Origin: an uncultured Acidimicrobiales bacterium
GTDB taxonomy: Bacteria > Actinomycetota > Acidimicrobiia > Acidimicrobiales > Aldehydirespiratoraceae
Reading direction: 5' to 3'
Assembly (NCBI GenBank): GCA_938091985.1
Contig: CALKOE010000347.1
Location: forward strand, 1 to 17,563
Length of the DNA: 17,563 nt
Position 1 is the stretch's first letter, and the number at the start of each line of letters is the position of its first letter. Made by a program: the position numbers and the translations under genes. Positions 3,030-16,846 of this stretch are shown here, one piece after another. The notes below the pieces were generated by a model. That model was not told where the DNA came from. It did no database searches and saw only the letters and a program-made list of their open reading frames with translations.

Positions 3030-3058
3030 TTGGTCGCCTACCGCGCGTCCGGTAGCGT
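3030..3058 (+). promoter_or_regulatory. promoter for infA and the alpha operon
   Basis: A -35-like TTGGTC (3030-3035) is separated by exactly 17 bases from a -10 TAGCGT (3053-3058), which fits the TAnnnT pattern of actinobacterial sigma-70 promoters. The predicted transcript start is near 3065, leaving a leader of about 70 bases before infA. The TTG of the -35 box is also the only ordinary in-frame start codon upstream of infA. That argues it is a promoter element rather than a start. Seen in sequence; not proven experimentally. Confidence 0.6.
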
Positions 3059-3066
3059 AGTCAGCT

Positions 3067-3086
3067 GGCCTGGGTCCACCCAGGTC
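3067..3086 (+). promoter_or_regulatory. leader hairpin upstream of infA
   Basis: GGCCTGGG (3067-3074), loop TCCA, CCCAGGTC (3079-3086) forms a continuous 8-bp stem with one G:U pair. It lies right at the predicted 5' end of the infA transcript and about 50 bases before the start codon. No U-tract follows, so it is unlikely to be a terminator. It could stabilise the 5' end or be a regulatory structure. Confidence 0.5.
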
Positions 3087-3134
3087 ATTCCGCGTGCGAG
3101 CAACCAGCTCGTCGTTTTCGAAGAGGTTTCCGCC

Positions 3135-3359
3135 ATCGCAAAGCCCAAGGAAGATGCGATCGTTCTCGAGGGGACGGTCACCGAGTCGCTCCCCAATGCC
3201 ATGTTCCGCGTGGAGTTGGAGAACGGCCCAGAGGTGCTCGCACACATCAGCGGCAAAATGCGAATGCACTACATCCGCATTCTTCCTGGCGATCGCGTCC
3301 AGGTGGAACTCACCCCATACGACCTCCAACGGGGCCGTATCACCTACAGGTATAAGTAG
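3135..3359 (+). CDS. infA: translation initiation factor IF-1 (apparent AUC start)
   Basis: IF-1 binds the 30S A site and works with IF-2 and IF-3 to select the initiator tRNA and start codon. The 74-residue product is one OB-fold, with the family's conserved stretches [33 protein letters not shown] and [15 protein letters not shown]-1 normally begins Met-Ala-Lys. Here the codon at that place is ATC (3135-3137), followed by GCA AAG CCC. A good Shine-Dalgarno, AAGAGG (3121-3126), lies 8 bases before it. The only ordinary in-frame start upstream is TTG at 3030, which adds 35 unrelated residues and coincides with a -35 box; ATT at 3087 is another non-standard option. An AUC start is therefore inferred; a G-to-C base error would look the same. 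rpmJ follows after 6 bases. Confidence 0.93.
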
Positions 3360-3365
3360 CTCTCC

Positions 3366-3479
3366 ATGAAGGTTCGACCAAGCGTCAAGAAGATCTGTGA
3401 CAAGTGCAAGGTGATTCGTCGCCACGGCCGTGTCATGGTCATCTGCGAAAACCCGCGTCACAAGCAGAGGCAAGGCTGA
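3366..3479 (+). CDS. rpmJ: 50S ribosomal protein L36 (zinc-binding form)
   Basis: This 37-residue protein is L36, the smallest large-subunit protein, which stabilises 23S rRNA folding. The sequence begins [19 protein letters not shown] and keeps all zinc-ribbon ligands: Cys11, Cys14, Cys27 and His32. It is therefore the C+ (zinc-binding) paralogue type, not the zinc-independent form some bacteria induce under zinc limitation. The ATG at 3366 follows the infA stop after 6 bases, and rpsM starts one base after the TGA. infA-rpmJ-rpsM is the standard order. The gene is easily missed because of its size. Confidence 0.96.
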
Positions 3480-9618: not shown

Positions 9619-12600
9619 ATGTGCGGGATCATCGCCGTTGTTCGGCGGCCCTCGACTCGATCCACGCCGACGGGGATCGAAGTCGTCACGCCTGTGATCG
9701 GTCTCGCAGCGACGCTGCGAGATGCCGACGACGTCACTGCAGCGCTTCGAGCGGCTGCCGATGAACTCTCGATCGTCGACGCGCTTCTGCGTGGCGTTCC
9801 GGGCGTGCGGCTACTGCTCGAGGATGCAACCGTCGCTCCTGCGCTCGCCCATCACTGTGGCGAGGTGCATGCGGCGGTCGAGGCGATCGAAGCGGCCATG
9901 GAGGCCGGCGCGGCGCTGCCGACCGCCGAGCTCGAACGCCGAAATCACGAACTGATCCGAGTGCGCGACGGTGTTTGGGCAATCACCCGTGACCGCCTGC
10001 GGGCGGCGGAGACCGTGGCGATGCTGGCCGGTGACAGCCGCGGCGCCGGTGCGCTCGAGGCGCTCCTCTCGGTTCATCAGGCTCTGAGCGCGATCGATCG
10101 CCTCGAGGTACGTGGCCGTGACTCCGCCGGTCTACACCTGCTTGTCCACGACCACGCCCTCGATCTCGACGATCCCGCGCTCCTGGCCGCCATCGAGGCG
10201 CGCTCCGGCGACGAGAACTTTGGCTCGGGCAGCGTTCGAATTGTCGACGGCGTGTTGAGTGTTGTGCACAAGACGGCCGCCGAGATCGGCGAACTCGGCG
10301 ACAACTCATCGGTCATTCGCAAGGCGATCGCCGAGGACGAGATCCTTCGAGCGGCGCTTGCCAACGACACCGCCCGGACCCTGGTACTCGGCCACACTCG
10401 CTGGGCGTCGATCGGCATCATCAGCGAACCCAACGCTCATCCGCTCAACAGCGAGCTCGTCGGCGCGTCCGGCCCGTACGTGGTCGGCGCGCTCAATGGC
10501 GATGTCGACAACTTCGCCGATCTCATCGCCGAAGAGGGCGTCACGATCGCCCCTTCGATCACCACCGACGCGAAGGTCATCCCGAGTCTGATGAGCTGTC
10601 GCCTCGCCGACGGGCTCGAATCAGCCGAAGCGTTTCGGCGCACCGTCGCCACGTTCGAAGGCTCCGTCGCGATCGGCGCCTCCACCGCCAGCGCACCCGA
10701 TCGCCTTCAGCTGGCCCTGCGGGGAAGCGGCCAGGCGCTTTACGTCGGACTTGCCGAGGACGCCTACATAGTGGCGAGCGAGCCCTACGGCGTGGTGGAA
10801 GAGACCGCCCGCTACATCCGTATGGATGGCGAAACTCCCGGCAATCTCGAGAACCCCAACGCGAGCCGAGGCCAGATCATCGAGCTCGACGGCAACGCCG
10901 CCGGCTCGCTGTCGGGCATCCTGCGCAAGTCCTACGACGGCACCGACCTGCCGGTCCACGAAGACGATGTGGCGGTGGCCCAGATCACCACACGCGACAT
11001 CGACCGCGGTGATCACCCTCACTACTTGATGAAGGAGATCGGTGAAGCACCGACCTCGTTCCGCAAGACGCTGCGCGGCAAGGTCATCGAGGGCCCTGAT
11101 GGTCCCGAGGTCTCTCTGGGCCCCGAGATCATGCCCGCCGACGTGCGGGCTGGGCTCGCCGACGGTTCGATCTCGCGGGTCCTCGTGATCGGGCAAGGCA
11201 CTGCCGCAGTTGCCGGCCAGTCGCTCGCGGCCGCACTCGCGGTGCTGGTGCCTGATGGCCAGATCTTGAGCCAGGCCATCCTCGCCACCGAACTCTCCGG
11301 CTTCTCGCTGCGCGCTGACATGAGCGACACGCTCATCGTTGCGGTGAGCCAATCGGGAACCACCACCGACACCAATCGCACCGTCGACATCGTCCGCAAC
11401 CGCGGCGCGAAGGTGATCGCCATCGTGAACCGCCGCGGAAGCGACCTCACCGATCGCGCCGACGGTGTGCTCTACACATCCGATGGCCGAGACGTCGAGA
11501 TGTCGGTGGCCTCGACCAAGGCCTTCTACAGCCAGATCGCCGCGGGGCTCCTGTTGGCCATCGCCATCGCCGATGAGTTGTTGGGAAGCGTTGGGGCTGA
11601 TGACCGTCGAGTCCTCCTCGAGGGCATTGCCGCGATTCCGACCGCGATGGAGACGGTGATCTCCCGCCGCGACGTGATCGGCGATTCCGCTCGCCAGTTC
11701 GCGCCGAGCCGCCGCTACTGGGCGCTCGTCGGCAACGGCAGCAACCGCATCGCTGCGCAGGAAGTGCGGATCAAGCTCTCCGAGCTCTGCTACAAGTCGA
11801 TCGCCGCCGACAGCACCGAAGACAAGAAGCACATCGATCTCTCGTCGGAGCCGCTGATTCTCGTCTGCGCAGCCGGTCTCTCCGGTTCGACCGCCGATGA
11901 CGTGGCCAAGGAAGTCGCGATCTTCCGTGCCCACAAGGCCGCCCCGATCGTCATCGCCGATGAGGGCGAAGGACGTTTCGACGCTGCGCTGGCGGTTCTG
12001 CCGGTTCCGGCCGTCGACTCCCGTCTCGGGTTCATTCTCTCGGCCATGGCCGGTCACCTCTTCGGCTACGAGGTGGCGCTTGCGATCGATGCGCAGGCAA
12101 TGCCGATGCGCGAGGCCCGCAGCGCGATCGAACAGGTTGCCGCTCGCGTCGACGTGAATGGTGAAGCCGCCCTCGCTGTGGTGGAGCCTGTGCTCGAGCG
12201 GACTGCCGCGGCCTTCTTCGACGGCGCGCGTACCGGTGCCTACAACGGCCACCTCGAAGCCGGCACTGCGGTGAAGATGGGCTCCTTGCTGCGCTTCGCC
12301 CTCGGTTCGTCGCCGCTCGAGTCGTACCAGATCGAATACGGCAAGGTCGGCACGCCCGCGGTGGTGCTCGACGATCTCGCGGCTGCGCTCACCCTCGGAA
12401 TCGAAGAACTCACCCGTCCCATCGACGCCATCAAGCACCAGGCGAAGACCGTGACGGTCGGGATCTCCCGCTCCGACGAGACATTGCTCGAGGTCGCCCT
12501 GGCCCGGGCGGCGCTCGAGGCCGGAGCACCTCGCGACCGACTCAGCTACGCGTCATTGCGCACGCTGGCCGATCTCGATCCCGCTGTGGCAGAAGTGCTG

Positions 12601-13062
12601 GGCCACACCCGCTATCGCATCGAGGGTCTCGACGAAGACGGCGATGGCGAAGCGACGGCAGTCGTCGTCGACCGTGGCGGCATCAGCCAGGGCATCCCCT
12701 CACGCACCGACCGCTCGCCGACGTTGCGAGGCACCAAGCATCAGGTGGCGCTGGAGCGTCGTGTGTTCGTCGCACTCGGTCGCAGCGACGGGCGCTCCCT
12801 CGTGTTTGTGCCCGAGTTGAAGGACAACGTCACCACCGGGATGACGCTTCTCCAGGTGCGTTTCGCCGATGAGCTCTCGCCCGGGGCGGCCCGCGGTGTG
12901 CTCCAGGGATACCGCAATCGCTACTCCGCATTGCGTGACGCAGTGCTGGAGACCGAAGAGGCGTTCCGCGAAGACATCTTGGGCGAGCAGGAAGTCGCTG
13001 AGCTTCTGACCCTGCCGATCAACGTGCTGGCCGACCGCTGGCGCGTCGGCAACGGCGCATAG
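9619..13062 (+). CDS. glmS: enlarged glutamine-fructose-6-phosphate aminotransferase (GlmS-like)
   Basis: GlmS makes glucosamine-6-phosphate from fructose-6-phosphate and glutamine, the entry to UDP-GlcNAc. Usual length is about 610 residues; this protein has 1147. Cys2 of MCGII is the expected glutaminase nucleophile. The next family motif, RGRDSAG, comes only at 165-171 (near 26 in E. coli), so about 135 helical Ala/Glu-rich residues are inserted. GHTRWA (258-263), NAHP (272-275), Asn293-Gly294 and Asp317 follow. SIS domain 1 has SQSGTT (577-582) and VASTKAF (630-636). SIS domain 2 keeps equivalents of E. coli Glu481, Lys485, Glu488 and His504 as Glu715, Lys719, Glu722 and His738. The tail motif AKTVTVG (942-948; Lys943 like Lys603) lies about 110 residues late, and about 200 unrecognised residues follow. 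ATG 9619 has GGAG at 9607-9610. Being next to glmM supports the role; activity is inferred. Confidence 0.85.
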   Translation: MCGIIAVVRRPSTRSTPTGIEVVTPVIGLAATLRDADDVTAALRAAADELSIVDALLRGVPGVRLLLEDATVAPALAHHCGEVHAAVEAIEAAMEAGAALPTAELERRNHELIRVRDGVWAITRDRLRAAETVAMLAGDSRGAGALEALLSVHQALSAIDRLEVRGRDSAGLHLLVHDHALDLDDPALLAAIEARSGDENFGSGSVRIVDGVLSVVHKTAAEIGELGDNSSVIRKAIAEDEILRAALANDTARTLVLGHTRWASIGIISEPNAHPLNSELVGASGPYVVGALNGDVDNFADLIAEEGVTIAPSITTDAKVIPSLMSCRLADGLESAEAFRRTVATFEGSVAIGASTASAPDRLQLALRGSGQALYVGLAEDAYIVASEPYGVVEETARYIRMDGETPGNLENPNASRGQIIELDGNAAGSLSGILRKSYDGTDLPVHEDDVAVAQITTRDIDRGDHPHYLMKEIGEAPTSFRKTLRGKVIEGPDGPEVSLGPEIMPADVRAGLADGSISRVLVIGQGTAAVAGQSLAAALAVLVPDGQILSQAILATELSGFSLRADMSDTLIVAVSQSGTTTDTNRTVDIVRNRGAKVIAIVNRRGSDLTDRADGVLYTSDGRDVEMSVASTKAFYSQIAAGLLLAIAIADELLGSVGADDRRVLLEGIAAIPTAMETVISRRDVIGDSARQFAPSRRYWALVGNGSNRIAAQEVRIKLSELCYKSIAADSTEDKKHIDLSSEPLILVCAAGLSGSTADDVAKEVAIFRAHKAAPIVIADEGEGRFDAALAVLPVPAVDSRLGFILSAMAGHLFGYEVALAIDAQAMPMREARSAIEQVAARVDVNGEAALAVVEPVLERTAAAFFDGARTGAYNGHLEAGTAVKMGSLLRFALGSSPLESYQIEYGKVGTPAVVLDDLAAALTLGIEELTRPIDAIKHQAKTVTVGISRSDETLLEVALARAALEAGAPRDRLSYASLRTLADLDPAVAEVLGHTRYRIEGLDEDGDGEATAVVVDRGGISQGIPSRTDRSPTLRGTKHQVALERRVFVALGRSDGRSLVFVPELKDNVTTGMTLLQVRFADELSPGAARGVLQGYRNRYSALRDAVLETEEAFREDILGEQEVAELLTLPINVLADRWRVGNGA

Positions 13063-14820: not shown

Positions 14821-15927
14821 ATGACGCTGACGGTCGACCTCGTCGAGCCGTTCTACGGCGGTTCGCATCAGGCATGGGCCGACGGTTGGGCATCCCACAG
14901 CGACCACGAGGTGCGATGCCACACGATGCCTGCGTCGGGATGGCGATGGAGGATGAGAGGCGCATCGTCGACTCTCGCCCCCATGCTCGTGGAGGCCCAT
15001 GAGCACCACCCCGCCGACCTCTTGGTGGTGTCGGACATGATCGACCTCGGCGACCTGCTCGCTCGAACGCGCACCACCCACATCGAGACACCGGTGGCGC
15101 TGTATCTCCACGAGAATCAGCTGACCTATCCGCGCCAGCCGGGCGAGGATCTCGACGCGGGACTTGCCTGGATCACGTGGCGCAATCTGACCCTCGCCGA
15201 CGAGATCTGGATCAACTCGGCCTTTCATCGCGACGAGCTGCTGGCGGCCCTGCCGCCGTTCCTCGAGGCCGTACCGGACCACAATCACCTCGACCTCCTC
15301 GAAGGTGTGGCCCAGCGAATCCGCGTGCTGCCCGTTGGCGTCGAGATTCCCGAGTCGTTGCCACGCACCGAGCCGCCCCTGATCCTGAGCAACCAACGCT
15401 GGCACCACGACAAGGACGTCGCATCGGTTGTCCGTGCGCTCCTTCGCCTGGCCGCGGACGGCGTGCCGTTTCGCGCCGCTGTGGTCGGCGATCATCGCGG
15501 CGGAAACGCGGACGAGATCGACCCGCTGCTCGACCGCCTCGGCGACCGGTTGGTTGCTCGCGGTCATCAAGATCGTGCCGCCTACGAGATGGTGGTCGGT
15601 CAGGCCGACATCGTGGTGTCGGCTGCCCGCAACGAGTTCTTCGGCATCGCCGTCGTAGAGGCACTCGGTGCCGGCGCCGTTCCCGTGTTGCCGAACGCGC
15701 TGGCCTACCCGGAGGTGGTCCCGGTGCAGTTCCACGCGTCGGCGCTCTACGAACGAGGCGAACTCCGCCCGGCGATCGAGCGTGCCATCAGCGATCTCTC
15801 GCTCCGTCGAGCTGCCGTCGCCGGGCTCGACAGAGCCATGGACAGGTTCCGCTGGGCAAACGTGGCTCCGGCCTACGACCGCGCGGCATCGGCTCTCGCC
15901 GCACCGGGCCACCCGGGCGAGCACTAG
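14821..15927 (+). CDS. DUF3524/GTDC1-type glycosyltransferase, tRNA-queuosine mannosyltransferase-like
   Basis: This 368-residue protein resembles the GTDC1/DUF3524 family, whose animal member attaches mannose to queuosine in tRNA-Asp. Family features seen are VEPFYGGSHQAWADG (8-22), the basic WRWRMRG segment and LHENQLTYP (96-104), the family's strongest signature. Then come INSAFHRDELLAALP, RVLPVGVE, the linker to the GT-B C-terminal half with NQRWHHDKD (191-199), and ARNEFFGIAVVEAL (269-282) with the EFFG of the donor site. No signal peptide or membrane segment is seen, so it should be cytoplasmic. The ATG is 4 bases after nnr. Being next to tsaE/tsaB, also tRNA-modification genes, is consistent with a tRNA role. 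The exact sugar and acceptor in bacteria are inference; a general GT4 role cannot be excluded. Confidence 0.82.
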   Translation: MTLTVDLVEPFYGGSHQAWADGWASHSDHEVRCHTMPASGWRWRMRGASSTLAPMLVEAHEHHPADLLVVSDMIDLGDLLARTRTTHIETPVALYLHENQLTYPRQPGEDLDAGLAWITWRNLTLADEIWINSAFHRDELLAALPPFLEAVPDHNHLDLLEGVAQRIRVLPVGVEIPESLPRTEPPLILSNQRWHHDKDVASVVRALLRLAADGVPFRAAVVGDHRGGNADEIDPLLDRLGDRLVARGHQDRAAYEMVVGQADIVVSAARNEFFGIAVVEALGAGAVPVLPNALAYPEVVPVQFHASALYERGELRPAIERAISDLSLRRAAVAGLDRAMDRFRWANVAPAYDRAASALAAPGHPGEH

Positions 15928-15928
15928 C

Positions 15929-16846
15929 GTGCAGCGCGTGAAGATTGCTGTCGACGGAGTGACCGTCGGTCATTGGACCGACCTCGAGGCCCGCACCGGA
16001 TGCACTGTCATTCGTCTGCCGGCAGAGACAGTGGCTTCCGGCGATATCCGGGGTGGCGCGCCGGCCACCCGTGAGTTCGCCCTGCTCGAACCCTCCCGGC
16101 TCGTTGCCGCGGTCGACGCAATCGTGTTGAGCGGGGGTTCTGCCTTCGGGCTCGCGGCGGCCGACGGAGTGATGTCGGTCCTCGAAGCAGAGAGTCGAGG
16201 CTTCCCGACGGCGAATGGACCGGTGCCGATCGTCGTCGCCATGTCGCTCTACGACCTCGCGGTCGGCTCGGCCGAGGTTCGACCCGACTCAGCGGCCGGC
16301 GCCGCGGCCGCTGAAGCAGCCGACACCGATCCAGCGACCGGCCGAGTCGGCGCGGGGACCGGCGCGATGGTGGGGAAGTGGCGCGGACCGCAGCACGCTC
16401 GGCCAGGCGGAATCGGCATCGTCAACGTGACCCGCGGCGAGCTCTCCCTCACCGCCATCGTGGCCAACAACGCGGCCGGTGAAATCGACGAAGGCCAGAT
16501 TGCGGCCACGGTGCTCGACGGGACCTTCGACGAGTGGCCCGACCGGGAGGCCTTTGCTTCCAACACTGCTTCTTCCAACACTGCTTCTTCAAACACTGCT
16601 TCTTCAAACACTGTGATCGGCGTGGTGGTGACCAACGCTCGGCTCGAAAAGACCGAGTGCCGCCTGATCGCCGAGGGAGCCCACGACGGACTCGCGCGCG
16701 CCGTGATCCCGCCGCACATGCGCAGTGATGGCGATGCCTTCGTGGCCGCCGCGACGGGGTTGGTCGAGGCTCATGTTGATGATGTGCGGCTGATGGCCGT
16801 CGTGGCGGTGGAGCAGGCCGTTCGGGAGTCCGTCGGTAGCATCTAG
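15929..16846 (+). CDS. P1/DmpA-family (S58) self-processing aminopeptidase
   Basis: The product belongs to the family of DmpA and mycobacterial Rv1333. These proteins cleave themselves into two chains and then act as N-terminal nucleophile aminopeptidases. The 305-residue reading has VTVGHWTDLEARTGCTV, RGGAPATRE (41-49), SGGSAFGLAAADGVM (68-82), GRVGAGTGAMVGKW and the C-terminal AHDGLARAVIPPHMRSDGD. By comparison with the NTTIGV-type site of relatives, cleavage should fall between Asn227 and Thr228 in SNTVIGVVVTNA, giving chains of 227 and 78 residues. Directly before it the pentapeptide NTASS is repeated three times. The start is taken as GTG 15929, one base after the previous stop; GTG 15938 is equally possible. 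A longer in-frame reading from 15668 lies inside the glycosyltransferase gene. The natural substrate is unknown. Confidence 0.88.
   Translation: MQRVKIAVDGVTVGHWTDLEARTGCTVIRLPAETVASGDIRGGAPATREFALLEPSRLVAAVDAIVLSGGSAFGLAAADGVMSVLEAESRGFPTANGPVPIVVAMSLYDLAVGSAEVRPDSAAGAAAAEAADTDPATGRVGAGTGAMVGKWRGPQHARPGGIGIVNVTRGELSLTAIVANNAAGEIDEGQIAATVLDGTFDEWPDREAFASNTASSNTASSNTASSNTVIGVVVTNARLEKTECRLIAEGAHDGLARAVIPPHMRSDGDAFVAAATGLVEAHVDDVRLMAVVAVEQAVRESVGSI
16562..16612 (+). repeat. 15-bp tandem repeat encoding NTASS next to the peptidase cleavage site
   Basis: Three full 15-base units start at 16562, 16577 and 16592 (AACACTGCTTCTTCM, where M is C or A). A fourth partial AACACT sits at 16607-16612, and GCTTCC just before resembles the end of a unit. 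The copies differ only in the last base of one Ser codon. They are richer in A/T and use TCT/TCA codons, unlike the surrounding GC-rich gene. The last Asn-Thr is the predicted autocleavage bond. Confidence 0.9.

Follow-up and report, generated by a model that had tools for sequence, protein, structure and literature searches.

Non-canonical start codons on the initiation factor 1 gene of Acidimicrobiales and a possible feedback on initiation fidelity

Control of a gene by its own product through the start codon is textbook knowledge for IF-3, whose gene in Escherichia coli, infC, starts at AUU and is under translational autocontrol. In that bacterium CUG, AUC, AUU, AUA and ACG make up one class of codons rejected by IF3, with UUG, counted as canonical in bacteria, lying outside it; bacterial genes that avoid AUG are reportedly the subject of a survey deposited on arXiv. 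The available text of work on Staphylococcus aureus describes infC (AUA), ccpN (AUA) and cvfC1 (AUU) as having extended Shine-Dalgarno sequences (PMC13009471), and that of a study dealing with chloroplasts has infA, the gene for IF-1, using UUG there, with a change of UUG to AUG raising translation 300-fold in Chlorella (PMC9845219).

The infA considered here is that of an uncultured member of the Acidimicrobiales, and it appears to start at AUC. Like E. coli infC it is a fidelity-factor gene under a non-canonical start, and infC of its own clade likewise starts at ATA or ATC; unlike E. coli infC the gene is infA, the common codon in its order is CUG, and the feedback is something we infer. 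A conserved non-canonical start, joined at the CTG sites of its order to a strong Shine-Dalgarno sequence, is what it has in common with the S. aureus set, as far as the available text of that study goes; the genes, infC apart, and the codons are different, and in S. aureus the effects were measured (PMC13009471). With chloroplast infA, as described in the text available, it shares being an IF-1 gene with a non-AUG start (PMC9845219). The lineage is nevertheless a different one, and the chloroplast codon is outside the IF3-rejected class. In a literature search that covered mainly open-access work, with few subscription papers and preprints, no paper was found that reports bacterial infA starting at CUG or AUC.

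The window (the whole stretch of 17,563 nucleotides analysed) comes from a draft assembly of 507 contigs, 66% complete, in which a single infA was found. Its infA, counted from ATC, encodes 74 residues (3135..3359, + strand, stop TAG at 3357-3359), and the product is IF-1 by its match to TIGR00008 (128 bits against a curated cut-off of 61.15, residues 4-72). The original prediction had ATC in the Met place before Ala-Lys-Pro-Lys-Glu, and so it is: ATC at 3135-3137 (+) is followed by GCA AAG CCC AAG GAA. The AAGAGG claimed to stand 8 bases before it is there too (3121-3126), within the Shine-Dalgarno sequence GAAGAGG (3120..3126, +), as is the TTG at 3030, in frame with infA, which opens an ORF of 109 residues and would add 35 to the protein.

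That TTG was further said to sit in the −35 box of a good promoter. A −35-like hexamer, TTGGTC (3030-3035), does indeed open with this TTG, and with a −10-like TAGCGT (3053-3058) at a distance of 17 nt it makes up a promoter-like element (3030..3058, +) whose conservation is seen in 33 of the 36 family leaders examined: the −10-like hexamer is present in 33 and the spacer is 17 nt in 31, with two leaders scored as 23 reading 17 by eye. The epithet ‘good’ fared less well, as a strict sigma-70 consensus scan found no promoter, and the element is read as a putative promoter because it is conserved in the family, not because it matches a consensus. Between it and the Shine-Dalgarno sequence two hairpins of the mRNA leader are predicted, at 3066-3087 and 3096-3112 (3066..3112, +; fold −31.7 kcal/mol, z −2.11), and the family has for the most part retained the first. 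Across 25 leaders from the family 86.7% of the cells of its stem are paired, which is better than slid versions of it achieve, but covariation in these leaders was not clearly above shuffles, RNAalifold retained 3 pairs and Rfam gave nothing above its gathering score on the leader; given these three outcomes, RNA structure of the leader as a regulator was set aside.

How far does the unusual codon extend among relatives? One search took in 61 relatives, 59 of which have infA, and another 158 genomes from the order, 152 of which have it; together they covered 190 genomes, 183 giving a match. The DNA of 179 of the 183 was read (G081, G111, G121 and G183 were left out), and 187 loci became 181 on merging identical ones. 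A script that allowed for N-terminal indels by an offset rule assigned the start codons, and the offsets it introduced were inspected by eye. The Met-place codon is CTG in 152 loci, ATC in 12, ATA in 1, TTG in 8, GTG in 5 and ATG in 1, with none in 2 (one of the TTG loci, L273, possibly having an ATG or GTG a few codons upstream, and the start in family f17 being perhaps the second of two ATC codons). A non-canonical start, CTG, ATC or ATA, is thus conserved in 165 of the 181, and, with L137 left out of the tally, 113 of the 121 genera have at least one such start, as do 56 of the 59 families. The class is not obligatory in the order: TTG or GTG accounts for 13 loci, and families f6, f35 and f59 have GTG/TTG only. 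Within the window's genus ATC is found in G000, G001, G003, G004 and G005, and CTG in G006, with G002 lacking an infA match; one of the four other congeneric genomes with ATC is a single-contig assembly. Of the closest named records, the 24 assigned by eye (L031-L054) have CTG in 22, ATC in one (L039) and TTG in one (L050); they stand outside the count of 181, and some are the same organisms as genomes counted there.

The two loci scored as ‘none’ are of different kinds. L137 (G028:C9) is a second IF-1-like copy in an AT-rich stretch; by eye it begins with an ATG that lies two codons later, and it is perhaps a paralogue or from a foreign contig. L267 (G108) has no known start codon at its infA Met place, and L134, of the same genus, has CTG.

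Were IF-1 to have its start further upstream, at a codon of the ordinary kind such as TTG 3030 in the window, it would carry an N-terminal extension, as many database entries are annotated to do, and in 80 of the 165 CTG/ATC/ATA loci there is an in-frame ATG, GTG or TTG, 2 to 60 codons away, from which it might start. In 84 of the 165, however, an in-frame stop is encountered before any of these (in the remaining one the contig ends), and among the 84 is the congeneric G003 with TGA in frame 5 codons before its ATC and no ATG, GTG or TTG between. The extensions in 17 database entries read are, moreover, unrelated in length and sequence, and TTG 3030 belongs to the conserved promoter-like element. 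Extension was rejected on these three counts, and we consider it very improbable. The extensions in many database IF-1 entries (74 to 128 residues long among the best 120 matches, P0001-P0120, three being of 74) look instead like products of gene calling that refuses the true start, and many entries for IF-1 from Acidimicrobiales would then have wrong N-termini. A sequencing or assembly error at base 3137 has in its favour the draft state of an assembly in 507 contigs; against it the same codon is present in four other congeneric genomes and in other families, for which it was rejected as a general explanation and is given a negligible chance. The Met-place codon is, besides, ATG or one base from ATG in 179 of the 181 loci, and it is taken to be the start because a decoded Leu or Ile should show other synonyms. 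It is thus close to certain that infA starts at the ATC of 3135-3137, and the claim of an AUC start comes through well: relatives do not have ATG there, with the one exception counted above, and the stop in G003 excludes an extension from an upstream ordinary start.

The genes that follow provide a comparison from the same loci. For rpmJ, the next gene after infA (ATG start in the window, 3366..3479, +) and our internal control, the starts are ATG in 139, GTG in 25 and TTG in 6, ordinary in all 170 read, with 11 loci lacking a hit; for rpsM they are ATG in 145, GTG in 22 and TTG in 2, ordinary in 169 of 169, with 12 lacking a hit. Neither gene has CTG or ATC in the loci read, and the non-canonical start is specific to infA. 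At infA the mean Shine-Dalgarno pairing energy is −9.8 kcal/mol for CTG sites (n=151) and −7.4 for ATC sites (n=12), with the neighbours at −4.8 (rpmJ, n=170), −7.1 (rpsM, n=169) and −5.9 (rpsK, n=158). A weak codon coupled to strong pairing suggests a start that is codon-checked better than it does one that is merely weak, an argument from the strength of the site that holds for CTG and less so for ATC sites, the window's included, with energies near that of rpsM.

In 11 loci (L139, L140, L141, L285, L288, L289 and L291-L295) infA has no rpmJ nearby, and 7 of these have GTG or TTG, with family f16 (4 loci) retaining CTG; infA may tend to have an ordinary start once it has left the ribosomal cluster.

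To view the history of the codon, a single quick maximum-likelihood tree was used; it has 169 loci, of which 168 have a state (CTG 148, ATC 12, TTG 6, ATA 1, ATG 1); 11 loci short of shared genes, including all five with GTG, were left out, and in number and codons they match the 11 lacking rpmJ. At least 10 changes of state are required, and at least 6 between ATC/ATA and the rest, as parsimony minima on that one tree with no direction given. The ATC clade of the window's genus (support 93) lies inside a mostly CTG clade, the placement of G006 being weak (24); f18, f28 and f44 have CTG sisters at support 94 to 100, and f17 and f52 are firm groups weakly placed. From the spread of CTG we infer that it is the older state and ATC its replacement. 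The original prediction had named conserved ATC or ATT in relatives as what would support it. ATC is indeed present in the four congeneric genomes, but CTG is the commoner codon in the order at large, and that criterion was too narrow. A passage from CTG to ATC or ATA takes two base changes and one to ATG a single change. Since the one-base product ATG was found once, against at least 6 of the two-base exchanges, the pattern points to selection against AUG at the infA start. The sole ATG locus, L257, has a site without Shine-Dalgarno pairing.

The genes for the other initiation factors bear on how the codon is to be understood. Among 30 infC loci of the clade ATA is read in 25 and ATC in 4, with one lacking a reading, and infC of the window's own genome has ATA. 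For infB (L324-L353) 24 of 30 loci were readable, the other 6 being left out, and they have GTG in 16, TTG in 7 and either ATG or TTG in 1. The genes for IF-1 and IF-3 share the rejected codon class, and that for IF-2 is outside it. All three initiation factor genes of the clade, it may be added, largely avoid AUG (infB with GTG/TTG in 23 of the 24). In G004, where 45 tRNA matches were obtained and 30 were placed as loci, there are three distinct tRNA-Met genes, all with anticodon CAU, one of which (L495) has an initiator-like GGG/CCC anticodon stem; no special initiator tRNA for CUG or AUC was seen in the part of the 45 matches examined in this one genome.

What might such a codon do? Our preferred reading, which we hold to be rather probable though well short of assured, is that infA, like infC, stands under a start codon rejected by IF3/IF1 and that this would give feedback on the fidelity factors. 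With AUC as its start in the window and CUG in the greater part of the order, infA would have a codon that IF3 rejects; its Shine-Dalgarno sequence would recruit ribosomes to the site, and initiation would be efficient only when IF3, with IF1 as its partner on the 30S subunit, was scarce. Synthesis of IF-1 would then rise when fidelity factors were short and fall when they were plentiful and, because infC also starts at AUA or AUC in the clade, the levels of IF-1 and IF-3 might be set together. What the sequences show is the start site and its conservation, the rarity of ATG, the strong Shine-Dalgarno pairing at CTG sites and the starts of infC and infB; a sensitivity of infA to IF3/IF1 is proposed, like the feedback itself, and that CUG and AUC would be IF3-sensitive in Acidimicrobiales is an extrapolation from E. 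coli. As described in the available text of the papers concerned, initiation at non-canonical start codons is inhibited when IF3 is raised, canonical ones being affected only minimally (PMC2268962), and IF1 promotes movement of IF3 towards the P site (PMC8266586); as a counterpoint, the text available of another paper has CUG giving no reporter expression in E. coli or chloroplasts, and quotes it as the start of 0.024% of the ORFs of 69 genomes (PMC9845219). The proposal, a form of which was already called plausible in the original prediction, fits the comparative evidence, and derives support from CTG/ATC/ATA being present on infA throughout so much of the order while its neighbours start normally, from ATA/ATC on 29 of 30 infC loci, and from a separate actinobacterial family (f68, below) with ATT or ATC on infA in 30 of 30.

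Its main rival is that the weak codon simply lowers the output of IF-1 as against that of the ribosomal proteins encoded in the cluster with it, as a static tuning with no feedback. We think this rather unlikely, and yet it has something to commend it: non-AUG starts cut yield generally in S. aureus reporters, going by the available text (PMC13009471), and the single locus with ATG has lost its Shine-Dalgarno pairing as if to balance output. The strong pairing at CTG sites works against a mere lowering, and so does the record of exchanges, in which CTG has been swapped with ATC/ATA more often than with the mutationally nearer TTG or ATG. The same exchanges weigh on the notion that the codon is an inherited relic, with CTG fixed in an ancestor and drifting among tolerated codons without selection. 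CTG as the common state, with so few changes (at least 10 among the 168 loci scored), is what a relic would lead one to expect; drift would, however, have had the best of starts, ATG, one base away and reached it once, while going at least 6 times by two-base changes to ATC/ATA, and similar codons occur in other lineages. A relic is accordingly improbable.

Feedback through a rejected codon, the reading preferred above, can be set against other Actinomycetota. A search of the phylum covered 149 genomes, 147 with an infA match, and a part of these, about one per family, was read; starts assigned by eye, an assignment leaving out several families of other classes with longer N-termini, are mostly ATG, GTG or TTG. 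In f68 (hits labelled Candidatus Humimicrobiaceae; 35 genomes searched) the 30 loci have ATT in 28 and ATC in 2, an in-frame stop comes first in 26 of the 30, and the NCBI entry P0121 is annotated already with the short form. In f86 the start of both loci is ATA or the ATT/ATC before it, and probably ATA. In f78 (L444-L473; near Thermoleophilia by hit labels) the 30 loci have ACG in 18, ACC in 5 and GTG or TTG in 7. An ACG start is possible there; an in-frame stop comes first in only 3 of the 18 ACG loci, P0242, one of these 18, is annotated by NCBI with an extension, and in the five ACC loci an ATG lies in frame, seven codons upstream. From another order of the same class come L302, with GTA at the place, and L354, with GTG. 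Six infC loci of f78 (L520, L523-L527) all have GTG/TTG, with the infA place at ACG in 18 of 30, the reverse of the usual pattern. It is conceivable, and we put it forward tentatively as less than an even prospect, that IF-1 and IF-3 form a start-codon feedback circuit that arose independently in several lineages of actinobacteria, the rejected codons differing among them (CUG/AUC/AUA in Acidimicrobiales, AUU/AUC in the Humimicrobiaceae-like family, AUA in f86 and perhaps ACG in f78), and that in f78 the role of sensor may have passed from the IF-3 to the IF-1 gene.

The retention of such a codon on IF-1 across an order, and again in other lineages, would suggest that the two fidelity factors may be under the cell's control by way of the very reaction they govern. 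A core gene has here retained CUG, a codon rarely accepted as a start, across the order, and the infA genes of Acidimicrobiales offer a natural codon-swap series for testing the feedback.

Two further features of the window may be recorded. A GlmS-like protein of 1147 residues is encoded at 9619-13062, with a best NCBIfam match over residues 234-823 that scores 228 of 381 bits, below the cut-off; the usual GlmS enzyme has about 600 residues and the window's protein is much longer. In the ORF at 15668-16846 there is, at about 16540-16640, a short in-frame repeat in which Asn-Thr-Ala-Ser-Ser occurs three times.
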